Below, one piece after another: positions 6,210-23,041 of a stretch of 64,000 bases of DNA (positions are counted from its first letter, which is position 1; every line of letters starts with the position of its first letter). The position numbers were made by a program, and so were the translations under genes. Source of the stretch: Cyclobacterium plantarum (lineage in GTDB: Bacteria; Bacteroidota; Bacteroidia; Cytophagales; Cyclobacteriaceae); contig NZ_JAANYN010000008.1 in the NCBI RefSeq assembly GCF_011290685.1, forward strand, positions 112,107 through 176,106, written 5' to 3'. The notes under the pieces were generated by a model. It made no database searches, was not told the origin of the DNA, and worked only from the letters and a program-made list of their open reading frames with translations.

Positions 6210-7501
6210 GGATTTATTGGAATTTTGACCATTTTATGATTTCCATCCAGGTCATAGACAGGTAATGCAAGTGATCGACCCTGATCAGTCCAGCTCAGGC
6301 TTGTGTCAGAACCTATGCGATCAATATCCTGAAAAAATGAAACCTGATTGAGTTTGCCGCTGGAGCTATTAAAGGTCCAGACTTGTCGGGTTCCGGACCT
6401 ATCCGATACAAAGGCGAGAATATTTTCATTAGCCGGCGAAAAAACTGGCGACATATCATTCCAGGGAGACCCCACAAACTCATGCTTCTGAACCTGATCC
6501 CCAAATTCCACGGTATAGATGTTGTAAACGCTCCTGTTTTCCACCGTGCTTAAATGATCTAAAGCTACTATATCTTTAAGGTTTGAGGCATCCATGCCTG
6601 TGGTTAACGGTAAGCCTGCGCCATGTTCCGGTAACTGAAAGGATGGCCAAAGTAGGTGGGTAATTCCTTCATTATCGCTTTTCCACAATCCCATTTTCCC
6701 CCTTTCCAAGGAATCTGAAAGAAACAACACCGAATTTTCCTCCTTCCCAAAGCTGGGAAACATTTGTTGGTGCCTGTCTTCAATTACAGGGTCTATTACC
6801 TTAGTTTCTACATCAAAAGTAAGTAAATGGGAGGGAGTATAACCTTGCGCTGTTTGGCTTAATCCTTCAGTTGTCGCAAAAATCACCTTTCGTCCATCAG
6901 CAGACCATTGCGGATGGTAACTATCCAATTTGACCAAATCAGTTTGCCCGGATACTATATCAAGTAAGAAAAGACTTAAGGTCATGAAGTCCTGTCCGGC
7001 TTCAGTCCATCGATAATTTGTAATAAAAGCCAGTTTGGTTCCTTGCAAATTTATTTTTGGATGATAAAGGGGATCCCAGCTTTCCAATTCCATCAATGTT
7101 TTGTATTCAGGAATTGGATGGGGAACTGTCATGATCCTATTTGAGCGGGTCGTTTGCCCGGCTCTATGTGCTGTCACATAAAACTCATGGGGTTGGCCAT
7201 ATTCCGAATTGCCCACCAAATAGGTCATATGGTCTGCATTTAGGCTTGCAATGCGGGTAAAATCGGTGCTTCCTGGGAATTTAGCGAAAACTTCATAGCT
7301 GCTTCCTTCTACAGTTGTTGGGTGGAACCAGGTTGTTAACCTGGAAATATTCCAGGTTAACATCACGTTACCATCTTCCATAATACTGGAAATTAAGAAG
7401 GGTGTACCGAGTACAGCACCTTCGGGAATAGGGTCATCCCATTTCTCCTCACAACCAAAGAAAGAAAATAATATAATCAGGCGAAGACACCAATTTTTCA
7501 T
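6206..7501 (-). CDS. Lipoprotein with Fn3-like domain and TolB/PD40-type beta-propeller
   Basis: The 431-residue product has a lipoprotein signal (SFFGCEE, Cys17). Residues about 30-120 resemble a fibronectin type III or Ig-like domain (GNVMLTWNISRL, SSYEVFAKFPG, GQPHEFYVTAHRAG). From about 135 onward there are repeated WD40-like/PD40 blades typical of TolB-like propellers (KINLQGTKLAFITNY, SYHPQWSADGRKVIFAT, SPVFSPANENILAFVSDRSG). Such proteins are periplasmic or surface-attached and are thought to bind proteins or glycans; no enzymatic motif is seen. It stands alone on the minus strand, about 730 bases upstream of susC in the direction of transcription, so co-transcription is unlikely. Confidence 0.7.
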   Translation of the reverse strand: MKNWCLRLIILFSFFGCEEKWDDPIPEGAVLGTPFLISSIMEDGNVMLTWNISRLTTWFHPTTVEGSSYEVFAKFPGSTDFTRIASLNADHMTYLVGNSEYGQPHEFYVTAHRAGQTTRSNRIMTVPHPIPEYKTLMELESWDPLYHPKINLQGTKLAFITNYRWTEAGQDFMTLSLFLLDIVSGQTDLVKLDSYHPQWSADGRKVIFATTEGLSQTAQGYTPSHLLTFDVETKVIDPVIEDRHQQMFPSFGKEENSVLFLSDSLERGKMGLWKSDNEGITHLLWPSFQLPEHGAGLPLTTGMDASNLKDIVALDHLSTVENRSVYNIYTVEFGDQVQKHEFVGSPWNDMSPVFSPANENILAFVSDRSGTRQVWTFNSSSGKLNQVSFFQDIDRIGSDTSLSWTDQGRSLALPVYDLDGNHKMVKIPINP

Positions 7502-8144
7502 AGTCTGTAACTTTGTCGCAACTTATCTAACAATTAAATTGATAATATCCCGGATTAACCTGATCAGCTACTACGTACCTAACCCAAGACGAAACAACCC
7601 ATAAAAGTGTCACAACTGATCAAGCTTTTCCCTATAATTTCTGGATTAATTTTCATGAGAAGATTTAAAATGTGACTAAAAATAAATTAAAGGCAAAAAG
7701 ATGAAGGGCCTGCATAAAACCGGATTATCCTGAATTTACCCAGGGGGTATTTTGGAAGATGGTGATGAGGAGGATTTTTGTGCCTTGATTTATGGGTCTT
7801 GTAGCCCTATAAACCTCAGTGGCAGGATTAAGTAGGACCTGACGGACATTGCCCAATTTGTCTTTTACCGGTGAATGTATTTCTTTAGCCTTTAAAATTT
7901 AAAACTATTTTTTAAAAAATACTTTTTATATTTATTAAAATGTATTTTAATGCATGTAAATTGTTTTTTGAACTTTTATAAACAGCTATGAATAAAAAAA
8001 TTTCTGCAGCAATTGTAGCCGCACATGATGAGGATACTGGTCATAACAGCATGCCTGAATTCCTCCAAATTTCCCATATAAGATCCTTTTGCAACTTATT
8101 TTAATTTAATTATTTATTCTATTTATTTACTAAATCTTTAAACT
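7502..8144. other. 643-base intergenic region between divergent genes
   Basis: This AT-rich stretch separates the propeller lipoprotein (minus) from the secreted protein at 8145 (plus) and must hold both promoters. I see no ORF with coding character, no strong inverted repeat and no RNA gene. Short in-frame stretches around 7731-7860 and 7987-8060 look like decayed sequence, but nothing can be identified. Confidence 0.4.
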
Positions 8145-12071: not shown

Positions 12072-12127
12072 TATATTTGATTCAAATAAAGGATAAATAT
12101 ATCCTATTACCTTTAAACAAAGGTAAT
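12072..12127 (+). promoter_or_regulatory. Promoter element and three stacked inverted repeats upstream of nitric oxide reductase
   Basis: TATATTTG (12072-12079) fits the Bacteroidota -7 element TAnnTTTG. It overlaps a palindrome ATTTGA-T-TCAAAT (12075-12087) reminiscent of CRP/FNR-type sites. Next comes AGGATA-AATA-TATCCT (12090-12105), then ATTACCTTT (12106-12114) pairing with AAAGGTAAT (12119-12127). All arms are perfect. The start codon is 36 bases further on. The repeats could be operators for a redox or NO-responsive regulator or form hairpins in the leader. No regulator gene is adjacent. Confidence 0.55.
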
Positions 12128-12162: not shown

Positions 12163-14421
12163 ATGAAAACCGAAAAAAAATTATGGATTGTATTTTCTTT
12201 AGTGGTCGGCATTTCTTTTGCCGTGTTGGGGTATTATGGATATGAAATATACCAGGAGGCTCCGCCGATACCGGAGGAAGTGGTGGACGAATCCGGTACG
12301 GTCCTGTTTACAGGGCAGGATATCCGTGATGGGCAGAATGCCTGGCAAAGTATGGGAGGGCAGGAGGTAGGTTCCATTTGGGGACATGGTGCTTACCTTG
12401 CGCCGGACTGGACAGCGGATTGGTTGCACCGGGAAGCTTTGTTCTTTTTGAATGGAATGGCTCGTGAAGAAGGATTTGCCGATTATGAAAGTGCGCCTGA
12501 AGAAGACAAGGCGGCACTCAGAACCAGGTTACAGCAAGAAATCAGAGAGAATACCTATGATGCTGAAGCTGGGACATTGACGATTTCTTCTACCCGTTAC
12601 GAAGCTTTTCAGTTTCTGAGTGACTATTATAAGGGCCTGTTCATGGGCAGCAAGGAATTGGAGGAATTGAGAAATTATTATTCCATTCCCGAGAATGCCA
12701 TTCAGGATCCACAGCGGATGAAGGATATGAATGCCTTTTTTTTCTGGGCAAGTTGGGCCTGTGTCACAGAAAGGCCAGGAGATGATATCAGTTATACGCA
12801 TAATTGGCCATCAGATGAATTGATCGGCAATAAAGCCACGGGTGATTTGTTGCTTTGGACCGGATTCAGTGTGATCATGTTGCTTTTTGGTACTGGATTA
12901 TTGGTTTTCTATTATGCCAAAAACCAAGAGGAAGAAATAGAAGCCCCGCATGAAGACCCTTTGATGAGGCAGAATATTACCCCATCCATGAAAGCAGTGG
13001 AGAAATACTTTTGGGTAGTCAATTTGCTGATATTGGTTCAGGTAGCCATGGGAGTGATAACCGCACATTACGGAGTAGAGGGGAATCTGCTTTATGGCTT
13101 CCCTTTGGCTGAAATACTGCCGTATGCCGCTTCCCGGACCTGGCATGTTCAATTGGCCATTTACTGGATTGCCACGGCATGGTTGGCCACAGGTTTATAT
13201 ATTGCTCCATCCCTTACGGGAAGGGATCCAAAATTTCAAAAGGTTGGTGTCAATTTTCTTTTTGTGGCATTGCTGGTAATCGTGGTGGGCTCCATGGCCG
13301 GTCAGTGGATGGGCATCATGCAAAAAATGGGCTATGTGGAAAATTTCTGGTTTGGTCATCAGGGATACGAATATGTTGGACTTGGTCGGTTTTGGCAGGC
13401 CTTTTTGTTAATCGGTTTGTTTATTTGGTTGACACTGATGATACGGCCCATGATACCCGTTTTTAAAAGCAATACCAATGAAAAGCACTTGCTGACCATG
13501 TTTTTAATTTCCTGCGCTGCAATTGCCTTGTTTTTTGCCGCAGGATTGATGTGGGGAAGACAGACCAACCTGGCCATTGCAGAATATTGGAGATGGTGGG
13601 TTGTCCACCTTTGGGTAGAAGGATTTTTTGAAGTTTTTGCTACAGTGGTAGCAGCCTTCCTGTTTACCAGAATGGGGCTGCTACATATTAAATCAGCGAG
13701 TACAGCAGTGATATTTGCTACAGTCATCTTTTTGGCTGGTGGAATTTTAGGCACTTTTCACCATTTGTATTTTACCGGTACACCAAAATCAGTAATGGCC
13801 CTGGGTGCCACATTTAGTGCTTTGGAAGTCGTACCGCTTTTATTGATTGGTTTTGAGGCCTTTCACAATTACCGCTTGAGCAAATCCACAGAATGGCTCA
13901 AGGACTACAAGTGGCCGATTTACTGCCTGATCTCGGTGGCTTTCTGGAATTTTCTGGGAGCAGGAATCTTTGGTTTTCTGATCAATCCACCAATTGCCCT
14001 ATATTACATGCAGGGATTGAATACCACACCTTTGCATGGGCATACCGCCTTGTTTGGGGTCTACGGGATGTTGGGTATCGGTTTGATGCTCTTTGTTTTG
14101 AGAAGCCTTTACAGAAATCAGGTTTGGAACAACAAATTGATTGGGTTTTCTTTTTGGTCGATCAATATCGGCTTGTTGCTGATGGCCTTTTTGAGTCTGT
14201 TGCCTGTTGGTTTGCTGCAGACGGTAGCCAGTGTCAATGAGGGCATGTGGTATGCCCGCTCAGCTGAGTTTCTCCAGCAGCCGGTCATGAACACCTTGAG
14301 GTGGATGAGGGTAATAGGGGACACCATTTTTGCCATAGGTATCCTTGCTTTGTTTGTGTTTGTTATCCGCCTTTTCTACGACAAGAAAAAAGTGAAGGCA
14401 GGAGAAAAGGTATCCGCTTAA
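12163..14421 (+). CDS. norB: Quinol-dependent nitric oxide reductase (qNOR)
   Basis: The 752-residue protein is a single-chain qNOR: an N-terminal membrane segment, a periplasmic cytochrome-c-like but haem-free domain (GQNAWQSMGGQEVGSIWGHG, residues 57-76), then the haem-copper-oxidase-like core with about 12 membrane helices. Likely metal ligands are His328 (RTWHVQ), His482 (VVHLWVEGFFEV, with Glu486), His533/His534 (TFHHLYFTG) and His626/His628 (PLHGHTALFG). It reduces 2 NO to N2O using quinol at the cytoplasmic membrane. No other denitrification gene is nearby, which suggests NO detoxification. It is monocistronic, ends in a terminator and has an elaborate leader. ATG 12163 begins the first membrane segment. 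Confidence 0.95.
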   Translation: MKTEKKLWIVFSLVVGISFAVLGYYGYEIYQEAPPIPEEVVDESGTVLFTGQDIRDGQNAWQSMGGQEVGSIWGHGAYLAPDWTADWLHREALFFLNGMAREEGFADYESAPEEDKAALRTRLQQEIRENTYDAEAGTLTISSTRYEAFQFLSDYYKGLFMGSKELEELRNYYSIPENAIQDPQRMKDMNAFFFWASWACVTERPGDDISYTHNWPSDELIGNKATGDLLLWTGFSVIMLLFGTGLLVFYYAKNQEEEIEAPHEDPLMRQNITPSMKAVEKYFWVVNLLILVQVAMGVITAHYGVEGNLLYGFPLAEILPYAASRTWHVQLAIYWIATAWLATGLYIAPSLTGRDPKFQKVGVNFLFVALLVIVVGSMAGQWMGIMQKMGYVENFWFGHQGYEYVGLGRFWQAFLLIGLFIWLTLMIRPMIPVFKSNTNEKHLLTMFLISCAAIALFFAAGLMWGRQTNLAIAEYWRWWVVHLWVEGFFEVFATVVAAFLFTRMGLLHIKSASTAVIFATVIFLAGGILGTFHHLYFTGTPKSVMALGATFSALEVVPLLLIGFEAFHNYRLSKSTEWLKDYKWPIYCLISVAFWNFLGAGIFGFLINPPIALYYMQGLNTTPLHGHTALFGVYGMLGIGLMLFVLRSLYRNQVWNNKLIGFSFWSINIGLLLMAFLSLLPVGLLQTVASVNEGMWYARSAEFLQQPVMNTLRWMRVIGDTIFAIGILALFVFVIRLFYDKKKVKAGEKVSA

Positions 14422-14428
14422 AAACATG

Positions 14429-14466
14429 TTCCCATTTGTCACATTAACTGGCAAATGGGAATTTTT
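14429..14466 (+). terminator. Intrinsic terminator of the nitric oxide reductase gene
   Basis: TTCCCATTTG (14429-14438) and CAAATGGGAA (14452-14461) are perfectly complementary over 10 bp and followed by a T-run (TTTTT). It starts 8 bases after the stop codon, so the downstream sensor operon should have its own promoter. Confidence 0.85.
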
Positions 14467-14808
14467 ACTATCTCTATCCTGAAATAAAAATCCTCTTACT
14501 TCCTTACTTTCTTAAATGCCCCTTATTTTTTTATGATTATTTTATCCATTTGAAGAAAATACTTCCGGATTTCTTTAACCCTATATTATTGGACCAATGG
14601 GGAATCAGGTTGTAACTTGCTCTGTTAGAGGTAGAATGAGAAATAAATAATAAGTCCGGATACTTTTGCCAGCTCCTGAGTCTTGTAAAAAGGGCAAAAT
14701 TTTTCTTTTTGTTGAAAGCTGCTCCTGAACGCTCTGTTTAATTGGTATTCGTTTTATTTTTCAGTGAACTCCTTTACATTTACTTTTATAAAAAATGAAT
14801 ATTGGTAT
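14467..14808 (+). promoter_or_regulatory. Intergenic region carrying the promoter of the sensor operon
   Basis: About 340 AT-rich bases between the reductase terminator and the ATG at 14809. The region must contain the operon promoter. I see no exact -33/-7 pair and no inverted repeat comparable to those upstream of the reductase. Confidence 0.35.
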
Positions 14809-15288
14809 ATGGAACAAGTGGAGGAATTTTTTACCAAATTATTACTGGCGGACGATTGGCCGGCCCGTTGGCTGTGCGGGGAATGGACCTCATTTCACGG
14901 ATGGTTATATATCACTAGCGACATTGCCATTTGGTTGGCTTATTTTGTGATTCCGGCCATTATTATCTTTTTTACCCAAAAACGGCATAATCTGCCCTTT
15001 TTGCCGGTTTTTTGGCTTTTCGGAGCGTTTATCATCCTATGTGGAAGTACTCATTTGATTGATGCATTGATGTTTTGGTGGCCTGGTTATCGGCTAAGTG
15101 CCCTGCTTAGGTTATTGACGGCTTTGGTAAGTTTGGCAACTTCCTTTGTGCTCATTAGGGATTTGCCAAAGTTAATAGCAGTGAAACCCAAAGACGAATT
15201 GAAAACCTATCAGTTGGAAAAGCAGCTCATCCAGTATGAAAAGGAAATTCTCGAATTAAAAACCCTTTTGAATAGCAAGAAAGAATAA
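14809..15288 (+). CDS. Stand-alone ethylene-receptor-like membrane sensor domain protein
   Basis: From ATG 14809 the product has 159 residues, three membrane helices and a C-terminal coiled coil (about 128-156). It matches the ethylene-binding domain of plant ETR1: helix 1 ITSDIAIWLAYFVIP corresponds to ETR1 YISDFFIAIAYFSIP, and helix 2 FGAFIILCGSTHLI to FGAFIVLCGATHLI. The copper ligands Cys65 and His69 of ETR1 correspond to Cys78 and His82, and Asp25, Tyr32, Pro36 and Ile62 to Asp38, Tyr45, Pro49 and Ile75. Unlike plant and cyanobacterial receptors it carries no kinase or GAF domain. The stop overlaps the kinase start (TAATG), so it probably senses for the next gene. Copper and ethylene binding are inferred; the real ligand is unknown. 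A GTG at 14764 would add 15 residues. Confidence 0.85.
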   Translation: MEQVEEFFTKLLLADDWPARWLCGEWTSFHGWLYITSDIAIWLAYFVIPAIIIFFTQKRHNLPFLPVFWLFGAFIILCGSTHLIDALMFWWPGYRLSALLRLLTALVSLATSFVLIRDLPKLIAVKPKDELKTYQLEKQLIQYEKEILELKTLLNSKKE

Positions 15289-16445
15289 TGTTTTCAATTC
15301 GCCCACATGGAATGTTTATTCAAACGGCCATTTTGGTTTTCATGGCTTCATTTATTGCTGGTGTAGTGTACCTGATAGACCTGAATACAGATAGCACCGT
15401 TGCAGTAGCCAGTATGTATGCCATTGTTATTTTATACAGTTGGCTTATTCCAGGCAAGTTTGCAAGCGTTTTCACAGCATTCATCTGTTCTATTTTAACT
15501 ATCTCGGCTGTCATTGAAAGCAAAGAAATCGTTGATAACCAAAGTGATCTTTCCAATTTAAATATGGTTATTTCTTTGGTAGTCATTTGGACCTGCTTTA
15601 CTCTCGTATTCATTGCAAGGAGCGGCTTTTTCAGTCTTGAAAGGACCAACGATCAACTATCTGAAAGTTCTTTAGTCTTGTTGGATAAGGTAAAAGAATT
15701 GGACCTTAAGCAGCAGTTGCTATCTGATCATAAAAAGGAACTCGAAAATTTGAATAACGAGTTGCTGGCGAAAAACCGGGAACTTGAGCGTTTCACAAGT
15801 ATAACCAGTCATGATTTGCAAGAGCCCCTTCGAACCATTGGAAATATGACCCATTTGATTTCCAAAAACTATTATGCGAACTTTGACAATCAGGGAAAAA
15901 AAATGTTAGGATATGTGACAACAGCTACCGAAAGAATGTCAGCGCTTATCAAAGGACTGTTGGATTTTAGCAGGTTAGGCAATAAGCGAGATTATGAATT
16001 GGTCGACTGTCAGGATTTGGTAGACACTATTGTACAGGACTTGGATGCAGCGTTGACTGCCAGTAAGGGCAAAGTCATTTTCAACGAGTTACCTCTGGTG
16101 AAAGGTAATCCTTTGGAATTACGCATGTTATTTCAGAACTTGATCTGTAATGGACTCAAATTCTCAAAACCAGCTGTGTTACCAATCATTGAAATAACTG
16201 CCAAAAAGGATAATAGACAGATAAAATTTTGTGTGAAGGACAATGGCATTGGGATTGAGGAGGCAGATTATGATAAAATATTTTTGATTTTCCAACGTTT
16301 GCACAACGTAGAAGAGTTCGAGGGTACTGGCCTGGGCTTGGCCTATTGTCGTAAAATCGTTGAGCTTCACGGTGGTAAAATATGGGTTAAATCAAAAAAA
16401 GAGGAAGGAAGCTCTTTTTATTTTACACTGGCTAAAATTTTATGA
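15288..16445 (+). CDS. Membrane sensor histidine kinase, partner of the ethylene-receptor-like protein
   Basis: The 385-residue protein has about four membrane helices (residues about 10-112) without a large periplasmic loop, a coiled-coil linker (about 118-165), a HisKA domain with the H-box FTSITSHDLQEPLRTIG (phospho-acceptor His175) and a HATPase_c domain with N-box LICNGLKFS, G1 DNGIGIEEADYDKIF and G2 GTGLGLAYC. The H-box and ATPase resemble phytochrome-type kinases. It is translationally coupled to the sensor gene before it and the receiver gene after it (ATGA at 16442-16445). The likely signal path is sensor protein to kinase to the receiver, with no DNA-binding output in the operon. 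Confidence 0.9.
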   Translation: MFSIRPHGMFIQTAILVFMASFIAGVVYLIDLNTDSTVAVASMYAIVILYSWLIPGKFASVFTAFICSILTISAVIESKEIVDNQSDLSNLNMVISLVVIWTCFTLVFIARSGFFSLERTNDQLSESSLVLLDKVKELDLKQQLLSDHKKELENLNNELLAKNRELERFTSITSHDLQEPLRTIGNMTHLISKNYYANFDNQGKKMLGYVTTATERMSALIKGLLDFSRLGNKRDYELVDCQDLVDTIVQDLDAALTASKGKVIFNELPLVKGNPLELRMLFQNLICNGLKFSKPAVLPIIEITAKKDNRQIKFCVKDNGIGIEEADYDKIFLIFQRLHNVEEFEGTGLGLAYCRKIVELHGGKIWVKSKKEEGSSFYFTLAKIL

Positions 16446-16858
16446 GAGAACCAAATAACAAGTTGGATTGTGTCTTGCTCATTGACGATGATGAAGCAAC
16501 AAATTTCTATCATACACTGATTTTGGAAGAGGAATGTGAATGGGTGCATATTCAATCCGTAAATTCGGCCAAAGAAGGGCTTGACTATTTGCTTGGTAAA
16601 GGAGTATATGCCAATTCTCCTCAGCCAGGCATTGTTTTTTTGGATATTAATATGCCGGGTATGGACGGTTGGGAGTTTTTGGAAGCATATGATGAACTAT
16701 CAAAAGATATTCATGATCGAGTCGTAGTGTCCATACTTACCACGAGTTTTAATCCAGGAGACAAAGATAGGGCTGCAACCATTCCTTCAGTAAAAGAATT
16801 TGCAAACAAACCTTTGACACCTGAAGTTTTTTGGAGTTTGGTGGATAAAAATTTTTAA
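16442..16858 (+). CDS. Single-domain response regulator (CheY-like receiver)
   Basis: The 138 residues are one receiver domain: acidic pocket IDDDEAT (Asp15-17), phospho-acceptor Asp68 in FLDINMPGMDGWEF, switch Thr/Ser region SILTTSF, and conserved Lys in EFANKPL. There is no output domain, so it must act by protein contact or pass phosphate on to another protein. The start overlaps the kinase stop by four bases, which argues for stoichiometric co-expression. Receivers of this type often accompany phytochrome-like kinases (Rcp1 type), and LDINMPGMDGWEF fits that group. Confidence 0.9.
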   Translation: MREPNNKLDCVLLIDDDEATNFYHTLILEEECEWVHIQSVNSAKEGLDYLLGKGVYANSPQPGIVFLDINMPGMDGWEFLEAYDELSKDIHDRVVVSILTTSFNPGDKDRAATIPSVKEFANKPLTPEVFWSLVDKNF

Positions 16859-17125: not shown

Positions 17126-17749
17126 TTAAAATTTCATTGAGCCATTAGGCTGAAGCAAAAACCTAAATGTATAATAGGGACTTGGAGAACGCATCGGATC
17201 AACTTCTGCAAGAGGAGGATTGTCCTGGTAATAGGATAGGATTTCCATTTTGGCATACTTGCCTGCATTGGTCCTGATGAGTATCACACGGCCCGGGATC
17301 GGACTAATGACATGGGTGCCGGGGTTGTAATTGTACCAACCGTTTCCGGAACCTGTTGGAATGGCCATTCCATCGGCGCCATCGCTATGGAATGCCACTG
17401 AGGAAGGAACCTCATTCAATTCATCAAAGGCTGCGGTCACCACAGTTCCCTGTGCCGAACCAGGACCACTTGTCCCGCTGTTCACGATAAGTGTCGTTCC
17501 TTTAAAAGCAATGTCCCAATTCCCATCCCGATTGTCTACTTCCTGGTTATTTTCCAGGCTGAAATAGCGGAAAGGTCGCTCCTCCGTAATTTCTCCGGTA
17601 CTCCTGTCGATCACATCATTGGGAGCATAAAGATTCTCTACGGTTTTTGCCTGAGGGTCATTTTCCGGTTCCTCTACTTCGGAACTTTCGCATCCTGCGT
17701 TAAAAGCAAGCAAAAGAATGCCTGCCAAAATTTGATTCCATTTGATCAT
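17126..17749 (-). CDS. hmuY: HmuY-family haem-binding lipoprotein
   Basis: The 207-residue lipoprotein (lipobox NAGC, Cys20) has the HmuY layout: an N-terminal linker rich in acidic residues, then a beta-sandwich beginning WRYFSL-like (RPFRYFSLENNQEV) with NWDIAFKGTTLIVNSGTSG, a strand-rich middle and the terminal YAKMEILSYYQD and YYTFRFLLQPNG motifs. HmuY-type haemophores capture haem at the cell surface and hand it to the TonB-dependent receptor. It is the last gene of the operon, 8 bases after the receptor stop. The haem ligands in Bacteroidota HmuY homologues vary (His or Met), so I do not assign them. Confidence 0.9.
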   Translation of the reverse strand: MIKWNQILAGILLLAFNAGCESSEVEEPENDPQAKTVENLYAPNDVIDRSTGEITEERPFRYFSLENNQEVDNRDGNWDIAFKGTTLIVNSGTSGPGSAQGTVVTAAFDELNEVPSSVAFHSDGADGMAIPTGSGNGWYNYNPGTHVISPIPGRVILIRTNAGKYAKMEILSYYQDNPPLAEVDPMRSPSPYYTFRFLLQPNGSMKF

Positions 17750-17757
17750 TGTAATGA

Positions 17758-20076
17758 TTATTTATATTGATTAATTAATTGATGAATCGGTAATTTCATG
17801 CCTGCAAACAAGACCCTGCCCGGATTGGTGGGCGCGTAAATGGTAGTTTGATTGAAAAGGTTAAATCCACCTGCTTCGAGCATGATTCCATTGTTCAGGG
17901 CCTTGTTAAGGCTCAGGTTCCAACTGATAAGTCCGGGAGCATATTCTGCGGAGTCGTCCAGTATGAGGTTCCCATTCACATCGCCAAATCCAAATTTACC
18001 CCTGTAGATGACCCTGAGCGCCATGTTTATGCCGGTAGTGGATTCCTGGTAGTTGATTTTCACATTGCCATTATGCCGGCTCCTGTTAAATAAGCCGCCG
18101 TAATCGCTCCTTTGAACCCGTTGGCTGCGGTTTTGGGCATCCCGGCGGAAAAGTTCTCCTGCATCGATTTTTTCCAAAACATCCAGGTCCTTTGTATCCA
18201 GGTACATGTAACCCAGAGAAAATTGCAGGTTTTCCGATACCCGAAAGGTCCAGTCCAATTCCGCACCCCTGCTGATTACCCTGGCAATGTTGAAATAGGA
18301 GAAGGCATTTTGGCCGGAGTTCAGGCGGGCTACCAGAGCTGTTTCGATCAGATTGGAAATGTTGTTTTGAAAAAAATTGCCCTGAAACAATAAGTCCCCC
18401 GAGATTTTCCACCTAAACCCTGTGTTGATGGCGCGGGAACTTTCTGCCTCTAACTGGCCAAATTGACTGGAGTTGAGCAGCATTTGTTGTACCAATCCCT
18501 GGGATTGCAATCTTGCTATGCCCTGCTGAACCAGATTGGCCCCGAATACATAATAGCCTGCAGAAGGATTGTTGAAATTCAACAGCAACTGCCTGAAATC
18601 CGGGGCCTTGAAACCTGCCCCAAGTGAAAGTTGCCAGCTAAATCGTTCATTGAACTTGTACATCCCTGAAATCTTGGGACTGATTCTTTCACCATACTGG
18701 CTGTGCAAGTCTGCCCTTACTCCGGTAACCAGATTCCACTTTTCTGAAGGATCCCATTGGTGGTGTAAAAAGACATATCCGGCATCAAATCGATTATTGT
18801 CATCATACCTGGTGGCTTCCACGGTTTCCATCAGATGACCTAGCCCAATTGTGATGAGTTGTTTGGAATCCAATTGAAGGTCTGTCTGGAATTCTGTCCT
18901 GTGGTAATGCTGCTTGAAATCCTGCTCATCCAGAATTGATCCATCCTCTTGAAATACCGTCAGGGTATGGGTCTGGAAGAGGGAACTCATGCTCCTTAGC
19001 GTCATCTGCCATTGATCGTTGGGACGAAAGCTAATGGTAGGGTTCAGGTTCAGGTCCATGCGTTCTCCATTCAGGTCAGCCAATCTTGGACTTCCTTCTC
19101 CAGCCACCTGCATGCTATTTTCCGAATTTTCATTATAAAACCGGGAATAAACCTTAAAATTCCACTTTTTGGTTTTCTTACCGATTTTAAATTGAGCCGT
19201 ACTGGCTTGATATGGACTTTGGGTTTTTCCTGGCACCTCGGGAGTTATATCAAATCCATCAGTCGAAAAGCGGTTGAAATAGGCATAAAGGTTCCAGTCA
19301 TTCTGGTTCATGCCGATCTCTCCGCTGAGGTCAAGGGTGTTGAACGAGCGGTACCTGGATTCCAGGTTGGCAACAATCCTTTCCTGACTTTTTTTAGTAA
19401 TGATGTTGATTACTCCTGCCATGGCCTCGCTTCCGTAAATCGCACTGGAGGGACCCCGAAGGACTTCGATCCGTTCGATATTGGAAACTGCAATCCTATC
19501 CAGGTCAAAAGTTCCAGCGGTCCGGCCTATCAGGGGTTCTCCATCCAGAAGTATCAATATATAATCCGACGAAAGTCCCTGCATTTGCAGACCTGCGCCA
19601 TGATCTCCCACTACCTGCAGGCCTGTTTGTTCACGGAGTATCTCCGAAAGCCGCATGCCCCCTGTTTCCTGGATTTTCTTTCGGGTAATGATGGTGACCG
19701 GCATGGGCAAATCTTCTACACTGCGATCGGTTCGGGTGGCAGCTACCACCACTTCCCCCATCTGCCCGATCTTTTCCCTTAAATTGAACTTGTTTACCTG
19801 GCTGAGTTCTCTGGCCTGGAATATCCTTGTATCATAACCCATGGCAATTATTATGATCTCCTGGTCCTCCTGAAGGTTATCAGGAAGCTCAAATGAGCCA
19901 TCATTACCGACAGTAAGCACCTGTTCAGTTCCAATTTTCACCAGGGCATGGGGGATGGGATTGCCCTCAACATCCTGAATATAGATTGGATCGGAGGCAA
20001 AAGCCAGGCTGGGGATAATGAGCAACCCGAATAGCCCGACAAGTATTTTATATTTATTAAGATTAATTCTATACAT
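17758..20076 (-). CDS. hmuR: HmuR-type TonB-dependent haem receptor
   Basis: The 772-residue outer-membrane receptor has a signal peptide ending near AFA (about residue 27), a short CarboxypepD_reg-like domain, a TonB-box region (GEVVVAATRTDRSVEDLPMPVTII), a plug with ERIEVLRGPSSAIYGSEAMAGVINII, and a 22-strand-type barrel. The barrel carries GAGFKAPDFRQLLLNF, which corresponds to the FRAP motif of haem receptors. Context (HmuY downstream, HmuS and an ABC importer upstream) makes haem the likely ligand. A hairpin lies in the 43-base gap after hmuS and may lower or uncouple expression of hmuR/hmuY. Confidence 0.9.
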   Translation of the reverse strand: MYRINLNKYKILVGLFGLLIIPSLAFASDPIYIQDVEGNPIPHALVKIGTEQVLTVGNDGSFELPDNLQEDQEIIIIAMGYDTRIFQARELSQVNKFNLREKIGQMGEVVVAATRTDRSVEDLPMPVTIITRKKIQETGGMRLSEILREQTGLQVVGDHGAGLQMQGLSSDYILILLDGEPLIGRTAGTFDLDRIAVSNIERIEVLRGPSSAIYGSEAMAGVINIITKKSQERIVANLESRYRSFNTLDLSGEIGMNQNDWNLYAYFNRFSTDGFDITPEVPGKTQSPYQASTAQFKIGKKTKKWNFKVYSRFYNENSENSMQVAGEGSPRLADLNGERMDLNLNPTISFRPNDQWQMTLRSMSSLFQTHTLTVFQEDGSILDEQDFKQHYHRTEFQTDLQLDSKQLITIGLGHLMETVEATRYDDNNRFDAGYVFLHHQWDPSEKWNLVTGVRADLHSQYGERISPKISGMYKFNERFSWQLSLGAGFKAPDFRQLLLNFNNPSAGYYVFGANLVQQGIARLQSQGLVQQMLLNSSQFGQLEAESSRAINTGFRWKISGDLLFQGNFFQNNISNLIETALVARLNSGQNAFSYFNIARVISRGAELDWTFRVSENLQFSLGYMYLDTKDLDVLEKIDAGELFRRDAQNRSQRVQRSDYGGLFNRSRHNGNVKINYQESTTGINMALRVIYRGKFGFGDVNGNLILDDSAEYAPGLISWNLSLNKALNNGIMLEAGGFNLFNQTTIYAPTNPGRVLFAGMKLPIHQLINQYK

Positions 20077-20088
20077 AAGACTAAAATT

Positions 20089-20115
20089 TTTCCCGGTGCT
20101 GGTTCTACCGGGAAA
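20089..20115 (-). promoter_or_regulatory. Intercistronic hairpin between hmuS and hmuR
   Basis: TTTCCCGGT (20089-20097) and ACCGGGAAA (20107-20115) form a perfect 9-bp GC-rich stem flanked by A/T runs, in the 43-base gap between the hmuS stop and the hmuR start. On the minus strand it looks like a terminator or attenuator, or an mRNA-stability element separating transporter from receptor genes. Confidence 0.55.
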
Positions 20116-20119
20116 TTTT

Positions 20120-21172
20120 TTATAAACTGTCTATCAGATTTTTCCAGCGTTCATTTTGCGGAAGTCCGGGCTTTCTCAGTCCAAATAACTGGGCAATCAT
20201 TTCGCCATCCTTGTCGAACAATTCCAAAGAGGAAACCAGCCCATCATCGGTGTTTTTGTGAACCACCCATGCCTCAGCAATACAAGTTTCATCCATATGC
20301 ATGTTAAAATCAGGATCCATTACGTTGAGCCAATCCCCCAATTGGCGGATGGTACGCACTTTTCCCTGATGAATTTGTATGTTCCCCTTGTTGCCGGCGA
20401 AAATCATGATTGGCATCTTTTCATCCGATGCTACCTCCAGGATTTTTCGGCTGGATAACCTGTCTACAGGGTAGGCCCATTTTTCTCCTATCCATTTGAT
20501 GGCATCCAGGCGGTGCACATTGTATTTCCGGAGCATTCCAAAAAAATCATGGGTGTCTTTCATATTTTCCCAATCCTTTGCAAAAGCCTCCCTGTCTACC
20601 GCACTGGCATAGGTTTGAGGCTCAAAAGGAAGGGCCTGTATTGGATCACTTTCCTTCTTTTGCCGATAGGTGGCTACCATGTTGTCATACGCATCCTGGT
20701 TGCTATTTTCCTGCAGGTAGATTTTTAGAATTGCATCCCCCGCCTGATCAAAAAACTGAAAGCTTCTCATGGTGCCACGTGCGGTTTCAGTGGTAACGGC
20801 AAAACCATATTTCCACTTGTTCAAAAACACCCGCTGCTCAATAGGGCCTATTACTGTGGCGATTTGGCTTGGAGCAGTGCCATGGATGGTGATTTTCTGG
20901 AAATTTCCCTTGTGTTCAAGTACACAACCGTCATTTCTGGTTAAGGCCATCACTTTTCCCAGTTCCCGGCAGGAGAGAAGGATCCTGGCCCAATCATCTT
21001 TTAAACGAATGGGTGCCGGATTTTCAGTGGTCAGCAGTAATTCGAGTTCTGAAACCTCAAGGATTTTTGCTGCATCCCTGATTCTTGTTTTCGGTTGATT
21101 GGCCTTTAGGGTTTCCCAGGCATCCTTTAGTGCTGTGGCTGAGGGATATTTCAATGTAGTTTCCATAATCAA
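20120..21172 (-). CDS. hmuS: HemS/HmuS-type haemin-degrading factor
   Basis: The 350 residues comprise the two tandem HemS-like repeats (about 30-170 and 205-345). Typical family segments are seen: MALTRNDGCVLEHKGNF and MIFAGNKGNIQIHQGKV at matching positions of the two halves, and WLNVMDPDFNMHMDETCIAEAW. HemS/ChuS/HmuS proteins bind incoming cytoplasmic haem and either store, deliver or cleave it to free iron. The start overlaps the stop of the ABC ATPase gene by four bases (21169-21172), so the two are translationally coupled. Confidence 0.93.
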   Translation of the reverse strand: MIMETTLKYPSATALKDAWETLKANQPKTRIRDAAKILEVSELELLLTTENPAPIRLKDDWARILLSCRELGKVMALTRNDGCVLEHKGNFQKITIHGTAPSQIATVIGPIEQRVFLNKWKYGFAVTTETARGTMRSFQFFDQAGDAILKIYLQENSNQDAYDNMVATYRQKKESDPIQALPFEPQTYASAVDREAFAKDWENMKDTHDFFGMLRKYNVHRLDAIKWIGEKWAYPVDRLSSRKILEVASDEKMPIMIFAGNKGNIQIHQGKVRTIRQLGDWLNVMDPDFNMHMDETCIAEAWVVHKNTDDGLVSSLELFDKDGEMIAQLFGLRKPGLPQNERWKNLIDSL

Positions 21173-21978
21173 GCAAATTTGAAATTAGTAGTGTATGAAC
21201 TTTTTTTGTTGGGAGCGAGGCTGCTGACATAGATCGGGGCCGCAGGTCCATCCGTTTCCACATGTATGGGGTAATCAAAATTTCGTTGAAGGTTTTCCGC
21301 AGTCATCACTTCCCGGATGGGCCCTTGTTTTATTACAGTACCATTTTTGAGCAATACCGCATTGTCGGCATAATTAGCGGCCAGGTTGAGGTCGTGTAAG
21401 ATGGCCAGAATCCCGATATTTCTATGTTTCAATTGCCCAATGATCTCCAGAATATGGTGCTGCTGGGCAATGTCCATACTGGAAGTGGGTTCGTCCAGAA
21501 GCAGGTACCTGGGAAAACTTTTGATTTCCCAAATCTGGCACAAGACCCTTGCCAGCTGAACCCGTTGCTTTTCTCCCCCGGAAAGGTTGCCATATAATTG
21601 ATTTTTCAGCTCCCAGGTATGGGTGGCTTTCATGACCTCCTCAACGGTGTTGGACGGATATTTCTTTTTGGAAAGCATAAGTCCAAGCATCACCACCTCA
21701 ATGACCTGGAAAGGGAAAGTCATGGTACTGTGCTGAGGCATCACCGCTCGCAGATGAGCAAGTTCCTTTGGTTTTAAACCGCTGATGGGGAGACCATTGT
21801 ACCTGACCATGCCCTGTTTACAGAGTAATTCCCCGGACAATAGCCGGAAGAGGGTGGACTTACCTGCACCATTTGGTCCCAGCAAAACGGTCATCTCACC
21901 CGGCTTCAGATGAATGCTGACCTGGTCTACAATAGGTTTATTATTGATACAGAAATGAATGTTTTTCGCTTCCAGCAT
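21169..21978 (-). CDS. hmuV: Haem ABC transporter ATP-binding protein
   Basis: A 269-residue FecE/HmuV-type ATPase with Walker A GPNGAGKST (34-42), Q-loop MPQHS (80-84), signature LSGGEKQRVQLARVL (132-146), Walker B LLLDEPTSSMD (159-169) and the switch His in AILHDLNLAANYAD. It energises the HmuU permease. It sits one base downstream of hmuU and overlaps hmuS, so it is within the operon hmuT-U-V-S-R-Y. Confidence 0.95.
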   Translation of the reverse strand: MLEAKNIHFCINNKPIVDQVSIHLKPGEMTVLLGPNGAGKSTLFRLLSGELLCKQGMVRYNGLPISGLKPKELAHLRAVMPQHSTMTFPFQVIEVVMLGLMLSKKKYPSNTVEEVMKATHTWELKNQLYGNLSGGEKQRVQLARVLCQIWEIKSFPRYLLLDEPTSSMDIAQQHHILEIIGQLKHRNIGILAILHDLNLAANYADNAVLLKNGTVIKQGPIREVMTAENLQRNFDYPIHVETDGPAAPIYVSSLAPNKKSSYTTNFKFA

Positions 21979-21979
21979 A

Positions 21980-23041
21980 TCAGGTTCTTATTTTTTTCAC
22001 GTTAATGATCAGCCAGATAAAAAAAGGCGATCCGATAATAGCCGTGATGATTCCGATGGGCATCTCTGCAGGCATTACCAAAGTTCTGGCCAACAGGTCC
22101 GCTCCGGTAAGCAGGCAGGCACCTAATAGAAAGGCTCCTGATAAAACCAACCGGTGATCAGCACCAAATGAAAGCCGGATCAGATGGGGGACGATCAATC
22201 CCACAAATCCAATGGTGCCGGTCATGGATACGCCCACGCCAACCACCAGGGCACTCATAAAAAGTACAATGTATTTTACCTTTTGCACATTCACCCCCAT
22301 GTGGAAAGCCTCGTTTTCCCCCAGTGCCAGTGCATTGAGATTGCGGTATTGAAGCATGATCCAACAAGAGGGGGCAAGAATCAGTAAAAATGCAATTTTG
22401 ACCTTATTCCAATTGGCACCCCCCACATCCCCCAGGCTCCAGAAGGTAAAATTCCTTATGGCCGCTTCATCCGCATAAAATATGGCCAGACCTATCAAGG
22501 CACTTGAGAGGGCAGTCAGGGCAACCCCGGCAAGGATCAACAGGGAAATATCTGTTTTGCCTCCATAATTGGCCATTTTGTAAACCAACAGGACGTTGAT
22601 CAAGCCACCAACAAAAGCAAATAATGGAAGACTAAAGCTACCAAAAAGACCGGTAATCCAGGGAAAGGAGGCCCCAAAAACAATAAAAATCACAGCAAAT
22701 AAGGCACCTCCGCTGCTCACCCCGATCAGTCCGGGTTCTACCAGGGGATTTCTGAAAAGGCCTTGCAGGGCCGCTCCGGATATACCAAGTCCTCCCCCCA
22801 CCAACATAGCCAGCAACACCCTGGGAAATCGTATTTGTAATAACACATTGGTTTCCTGAACAGTATAACTTCCAGACACTATTCCCAGCTGCTGCAATAG
22901 AATGGAAATGGCATTGGAGAAAGGAATCGAAAATGCCCCGATAGATAGGGAAAAAACAGCAAGCATCACCATCCCCAAACCCAAAATGGATAGTACCAGG
23001 TTTTGATGTTGCATTTTCGAATAGACCAGGTTTTGGATCAT
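21980..23041 (-). CDS. hmuU: Haem ABC transporter permease (FecCD/BtuC family)
   Basis: At 353 residues with about ten membrane helices this matches FecCD permeases: RFPRVLLAMLVGGGLGISGAALQGLFRNPL (residues about 70-99), the EAA-like coupling segment ALGENEAFHMGVNVQ and GTIGFVGLIVPHLIRLSFG. It forms the homodimeric channel for haem across the inner membrane. The start overlaps the hmuT stop by four bases. Confidence 0.95.
   Translation of the reverse strand: MIQNLVYSKMQHQNLVLSILGLGMVMLAVFSLSIGAFSIPFSNAISILLQQLGIVSGSYTVQETNVLLQIRFPRVLLAMLVGGGLGISGAALQGLFRNPLVEPGLIGVSSGGALFAVIFIVFGASFPWITGLFGSFSLPLFAFVGGLINVLLVYKMANYGGKTDISLLILAGVALTALSSALIGLAIFYADEAAIRNFTFWSLGDVGGANWNKVKIAFLLILAPSCWIMLQYRNLNALALGENEAFHMGVNVQKVKYIVLFMSALVVGVGVSMTGTIGFVGLIVPHLIRLSFGADHRLVLSGAFLLGACLLTGADLLARTLVMPAEMPIGIITAIIGSPFFIWLIINVKKIRT

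Follow-up and report, generated by a model that had tools for sequence, protein, structure and literature searches.

An ethylene-binding domain (EBD) of Cyclobacterium plantarum is encoded as a protein of its own, with all seven ethylene residues in place, and its gene is coupled by overlapping start and stop codons to genes for a membrane histidine kinase and a single-domain receiver. This split ethylene-type receptor operon is real and conserved, and its composition suggests a gas receptor that is made from two proteins instead of one; its ligand and mechanism we infer. The reading that we favour, and regard as reasonably probable on the basis of the sequence evidence, is that a separate dimeric Cu(I) EBD would signal to a dedicated kinase and then to the receiver. 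All coordinates given below without a prefix are positions in the window, i.e., the 64-kb stretch of C. plantarum DNA that was analysed.

The EBD gene (14809..15288, plus strand) encodes 159 residues arranged as an N-terminal helix, three membrane helices and a C-terminal coiled coil. The original prediction had identified the protein by its key residues, and this identification is well founded: the Pfam profile ETR1_N (PF25487) matches it at 115.8 bits, far over the cut-off of 27 (E=1.1e-33), and an alignment with ETR1 reveals conservation of 7/7 ethylene-binding positions (D38, Y45, I48, P49, I75, C78 and H82, equivalent to D25, Y32, I35, P36, I62, C65 and H69 of ETR1). In this count D25 and Y32 are taken to belong to the seven ETR1 ethylene residues. 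Published work names I35, P36, I62, C65 and H69 of ETR1 as essential for ethylene binding (PMC6586836) and gives the number of required residues as seven (PMC11819568). Cys78 (codon 15040-15042) and His82 (codon 15052-15054), whose plus-strand codons were checked, are by alignment the putative Cu(I) ligands.

Hydropathy analysis of the EBD protein delineated three hydrophobic helices; a C-terminal helix with a heptad pattern comes after them. In an AlphaFold2 model of moderate confidence (20 aligned rows, pLDDT 76.8) helices span residues 28-58, 65-87 and 94-124, with a final helix at 128-158. Taken together, hydropathy and model give three membrane helices, the second of which carries the putative Cu ligands Cys78 and His82, predicted to lie one turn apart. 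The final helix would form a cytoplasmic coiled coil (residues 128-158; 15190..15282, plus strand), and its a/d positions (136, 140, 143, 147, 150 and 154) are hydrophobic in 81 of the 84 cells of 14 split rows. The heptad pattern and the C-terminal model helix agree with the earlier proposal that the EBD has a coiled coil of its own. A search for a solved EBD structure gave a best E of 0.72 with phmmer and nothing at E <= 0.001 with Foldseek; a review says that the structure has been elucidated (PMC10452086). In the published ETR1 model, C65 and H69 are buried at the dimer interface (PMC6586836), and because Cys78 and His82 correspond to these residues, the EBD protein of the window presumably works as a homodimer.

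The next gene encodes the membrane histidine kinase (15288..16445, plus strand; 385 aa), in which Pfam recognises HisKA and HATPase_c. Its phosphoacceptor, His175, was positioned from the HisKA motif (codon 15810-15812, plus strand, checked). Residues 6-109 (15303..15614, plus strand) constitute a four-helix membrane domain, defined by hydropathy and by a profile with strong hits only in split-EBD genomes; no Pfam model scored above its cut-off on this domain. The hydropathy segments cover residues 14-32, 36-54, 58-76 and 91-109 and are followed by a long helix, and a model of moderate confidence (12 rows, pLDDT 70.7) has helices at 6-33, 37-53 and 59-77 and a long helix at 87-198. The third gene encodes a single-domain response regulator of 138 aa (16442..16858, plus strand; Response_reg, 41.4 bits). 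Asp68 is its likely phosphoacceptor (codon 16643-16645, plus strand, checked), and the Pfam domain search found no DNA-binding domain in it. The operon has the make-up of a two-component membrane kinase system, with HisKA/HATPase_c behind membrane helices and a receiver adjoining.

The EBD stop and the kinase start share 1 nt (TAATG), and the kinase stop overlaps the receiver start by 4 nt (ATGA). Thus, unlike in a canonical ethylene receptor, the EBD and the kinase are not in one polypeptide; they occupy separate, overlapping ORFs. Both elements of the original prediction, an EBD on its own 159-aa reading frame and its coupling by start/stop overlaps to a membrane histidine kinase and a single-domain receiver, were confirmed. 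In a comparison of the window with the locus L031 of a sister Cyclobacterium, the dN/dS values of EBD, kinase and receiver were 0.14, 0.16 and 0.05, and that of NorB, the NO reductase encoded upstream, was 0.03. Because all values lie between 0.03 and 0.16, the four genes are under purifying selection.

According to one review, all described ethylene receptors consist of an EBD followed by a cytosolic domain (PMC10452086). AzoEtr1 of Azospirillum brasilense, together with its response regulator, resembles the window in being bacterial and in having a seven-residue EBD and a histidine kinase; in both systems the receiver gene overlaps the kinase stop and has no other recognisable output domain (PMC11819568). 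AzoEtr1, however, holds EBD, PAS and kinase in one 525-aa chain where we find two proteins, and differs from the kinase described here, which has its own four-helix membrane domain (PMC11819568). In SynEtr1 (slr1212) of Synechocystis an EBD also feeds a histidine kinase and a response regulator, but it does so within one chain that also has a light-sensing domain (PMC6682694, PMC7700396). SynEtr1 is reported to use a phosphorelay (PMC11819568). Arabidopsis ETR1 shares the three-helix Cu(I) sensor domain, with Cys65/His69 in place of Cys78/His82, but is fused to GAF, kinase and receiver and has a eukaryotic output (PMC6586836). AzoEtr1 and SynEtr1 are the nearest characterised kin of the operon; in each of them a single chain holds both EBD and kinase.

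A two-protein arrangement has a parallel outside the EBD family. UhpC is a sugar-phosphate sensor that controls a membrane kinase encoded beside the UhpC gene. UhpC-UhpB is named as a type of accessory membrane sensor with kinase, and the principle of kinase control by an accessory membrane protein is established (PMC12691602). As in UhpC-UhpB, a separate membrane sensor is encoded beside a membrane kinase in the window. UhpC is of transporter type and does not belong to the EBD family, so the likeness is one of working only and not of kinship. The gene arrangement fits a UhpBC-like scheme in which the EBD would physically control the kinase.

In the family of the window, EBD matches were found in 59 of 245 genomes. 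In 58 of these genomes a match exceeded the cut-off, and the matches number 66 altogether. Short open frames of 143-220 aa hold 18 of them, the one in G006 being cut by a contig end, and the remaining 48 are in frames of at least 379 aa, two of these below the cut-off. A stand-alone EBD is present in 18 of the 245 genomes; in the window's genus an EBD occurs in 2/9. The class and phylum samples (395 genomes each) yielded a sole over-cut-off match in a frame below 300 aa, that of the window, and the order sample (291 genomes) added four short unbroken EBD frames beyond G000 and G033; the samples overlap partly, and in each search the number of first-look candidates scored per genome was capped. 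The EBD of G1056 has the same score as that of L043, and the contigs that hold the two are equally long; G1056 was therefore taken as the same locus. In G974 (L168), from another family, an EBD lies beside a diverged four-helix kinase (82.6 bits) without a receiver, and in G1028 (L169) an EBD is present with no kinase within the 12-kb locus. A contig end truncates the EBD locus of G1048 (L170), and the EBD frame of G1135 (L171) is broken. The EBD of G1028, from another family of the order (L169 5764-6480, minus strand), has a longer hydrophobic N-terminus and a C-terminal coiled coil. A plasmid search returned 18 records, all with less than 60% identity.

The gene order is conserved in relatives, as the original prediction presupposed. 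In tblastn searches with the proteins of the window, 21 of the 22 distinct split loci, the window included, had the four-helix kinase directly 3′ of the EBD and in the same orientation, and the receiver was next in 18/22. The L037 receiver is cut by a contig end, L055, L056 and L058 have none, and the L033 sequence stops inside the kinase. As called, EBD and kinase genes overlap by 1-4 nt in 19 of 21 split loci. The 22nd locus, L058 (G235), has only a kinase remnant with stops. On the minus strand of this receiver-less locus an intact EBD frame runs to 7664 and the remnant, the first part of the four-helix domain, covers 7461-7664; the congener G221 (L057) has an intact operon. No other gene family recurred around more than 5 of the 22 split loci.

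When the 245 family genomes were searched with the four-helix profile, strong matches (E <= 1.5e-25) appeared in 18, which are exactly the split-EBD genomes. They sit at the EBD locus in 18/18 cases, one of them being the decayed kinase, and are absent from the 227 other genomes; weak matches occurred in nine of these (best 1.1e-10). The scoring in this search took in no more than 17 first-look candidates from each genome, so weak absences are less sure. No ORF carrying both an EBD and the four-helix domain was found among the loci examined. The EBD is exclusively paired with the four-helix kinase, and this coincidence, an 18/18 co-occurrence in related genomes that are not independent trials, provides the strongest evidence in the sequences that the EBD may act with the kinase.

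These observations bear directly on another explanation, namely that the kinase senses independently through its four-helix domain while the EBD is merely co-transcribed or serves other kinases. Some EBD-less proteins, kinases among them, do contain weak relatives of the four-helix domain. Additionally, the EBD protein can persist without its kinase partner, because the kinase of L058 is decayed and the L169 locus is kinase-free, and both loci would suit such independence, as would two results on the kinase cores and on the EBD/four-helix distances given below. Against it stand the confinement of strong four-helix matches to split-EBD genomes, always beside the EBD (18/18 vs 0/227), and the conserved overlap of the two genes, and we consider an independently sensing kinase unlikely. 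Among the weak four-helix relatives, the proteins of L126, L134 and L136 (182-199 aa) combine such a domain with a C-terminal Cys-x-x-Cys stretch; the L126 protein gave no Pfam match above cut-off.

The split EBD has one origin. In an EBD tree of 76 rows, 21/21 split rows fell on one side of a branch with support of 100/99 (the root is a midpoint used for drawing, and the fragments L009_S and L094_F were left out). The nearest rows outside this clade are fused EBD-kinases; in Spirosoma (L044, L045) a single chain comprises EBD and kinase, with a receiver after it. Most simply, the EBD would have separated from a fused kinase and been paired with a four-helix membrane kinase, a direction that we infer.

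The four-helix domains of the split kinases also form one clade (98/94), in a set with long branches. For the kinase cores, a single clade of 20 split rows was rejected (p-AU 0.017), a result that the independent-kinase explanation can claim, while without the rows of L055/L008 and L056 (18 rows) it was not rejected (p-AU 0.069). The 20-row test left out 8 named rows, three of them duplicates of kept split rows, and the far outgroups except for two that were restored; the 18-row test left out 10 named rows and the far outgroups. Neither test included the core of L033, which a contig end truncates, or that of L168. An exchange of kinase cores behind the four-helix domain is likely, and we put it no more strongly because the 18-row test does not reject one clade.

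Of the parts of the operon compared across 18 loci, the EBD is conserved best, with a mean distance of 0.24 (four-helix domain 0.47, kinase core 0.36, response regulator 0.36). In a mirror-tree analysis of these loci, EBD, four-helix, core and receiver distances correlated with r of 0.915-0.964. The EBD/four-helix value (0.915) is the lowest of the six pairs and is not set apart from EBD/core and EBD/response regulator. Thus, the mirror-tree analysis speaks for the operon in its entirety and not for the EBD/four-helix interface in particular, and the lack of a raised correlation there is a further point for a kinase that senses by itself.

All seven ethylene residues are present in 21 of the 22 distinct split EBDs, and the remaining one has I35L. 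The Cu(I) ligands are invariant in the alignment, in 22/22 split and 56/56 fused rows, and I76, which adjoins the Cu site, is a split-specific position, as are Q57, P66, W69, L119 and K121. At the position of ETR1 Asp25, 11 of the 56 fused rows have N, E or S and one further row is gapped; the ligand preference of fused EBDs with such a change may differ. One could read the invariant Cu(I) ligands, the variable Asp25 position of the fused rows and the split-specific I76 as signs that the EBD has turned into a copper or redox sensor, or into a kinase-tuning subunit without a gas ligand. The split rows, however, keep all the ethylene residues and not just the Cu ligands, bar the one I35L, and we find such a change of function about as improbable as an independently sensing kinase.

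According to the split-receptor reading, the 159-aa EBD protein probably homodimerises and would hold Cu(I) with Cys78 and His82. A small neutral ligand would bind to it, probably ethylene and less probably NO or CO. As it has no kinase of its own, the EBD would relay the signal, both within the membrane and by way of its cytoplasmic coiled coil, to the four-helix domain and the signalling helix of the neighbouring kinase. The kinase would in turn phosphorylate the single-domain receiver, which would act by protein contact. Cu(I) and ligand binding, an EBD-kinase complex, and phosphotransfer with its direction are thus presumed steps. A GST fusion of AzoEtr1 residues 1-130 binds ethylene in yeast (PMC11819568); an EBD therefore does not need its kinase in order to bind. 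That the free Cu(I) EBD dimer regulates the dedicated four-helix membrane kinase in trans, inside the membrane, seems to us slightly better than an even chance.

The original prediction had also placed the operon behind an NO reductase. The norB gene for a NorB-type NO reductase (12163-14421; a 752-aa chain with PF22085 and COX1) is truly upstream, but between it and the EBD gene lie 387 bp with a strong hairpin terminator. The hairpin (14428..14462, plus strand) has a 14-pair stem and a T tail, with a folding energy of -18.7 kcal/mol (z -6.3); in a window-wide terminator scan that was itself near chance (7 found vs 5.5 expected), it is distinguished by the length of its stem and by its folding energy. 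Outside the window, norB is a neighbour of the EBD in one of 21 split loci, L031 of the sister Cyclobacterium (L056 has no upstream DNA). NorB exceeded the cut-off in 32/245 family genomes, and its suggested co-occurrence with the split EBD was not borne out (3/18 genomes with a split EBD vs 29/227 without, p=0.71); one of the 3 positive split-EBD genomes has norB far from the EBD. Matches to PF22085 in three more split-EBD genomes, G034, G221 and G235, below cut-off and in frames of 147-172 aa, were not counted as NorB. In two genomes of the genus that have norB and no EBD, homology to the window ends at the end of norB. These loci, L065 and L066 (G067, G174), have genes behind norB unlike those of the window. 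The norB-EBD arrangement of the window looks local, and a norB link was set aside on adjacency, co-occurrence and the intervening terminator. Cu(I) sites can bind NO. A Cu(I) site that binds NO and a relay that regulates the reductase would account for the position of norB in the window and in L031, but given the counts and the terminator above, the congeners with norB and no EBD, and a receiver without a DNA-binding domain, we hold this to be very improbable.

The window was also scanned with an FNR/HcpR-like site motif. It gave 84 matches vs 66 expected, and because this is only slightly above chance the signal is weak. One near-match to the palindrome, with 1 mismatch, lies upstream of norB at 12077-12090; no site with <=2 mismatches was found between norB and the EBD gene. 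The Bacteroidota -7 motif TANNTTTG occurs at 14661, and its matches in the window are near chance. On the minus strand, 17126-23041 is occupied by a heme-uptake-like cluster in which the domain search recognised an HmuY-like protein and a TonB receptor, and in which a HemS-like protein, an ABC ATPase and a permease were noted by eye.

In the literature covered (titles and the beginnings of abstracts), we found no description of an EBD on a separate polypeptide and no report of EBDs in Bacteroidota. PMC10452086 contains both 'ethylene-binding domain' and 'Bacteroidetes', the latter word in connection with ACC deaminase. With the split operon the bacterial EBD proteins gain a further architecture, in a phylum where these searches found no EBD report. 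The conversion of EBD ligand binding into an output is described as still obscure (PMC6586836). Since sensor and kinase are separate natural proteins here, the ligand-to-output step becomes testable, as one can supply, omit or change the sensor independently of the kinase and map the surface of contact. If regulation in trans is true, an EBD would be able to signal without being covalently joined to a transmitter, and its pairing with the four-helix domain would be the heritable unit, behind which the kinase core is exchangeable.
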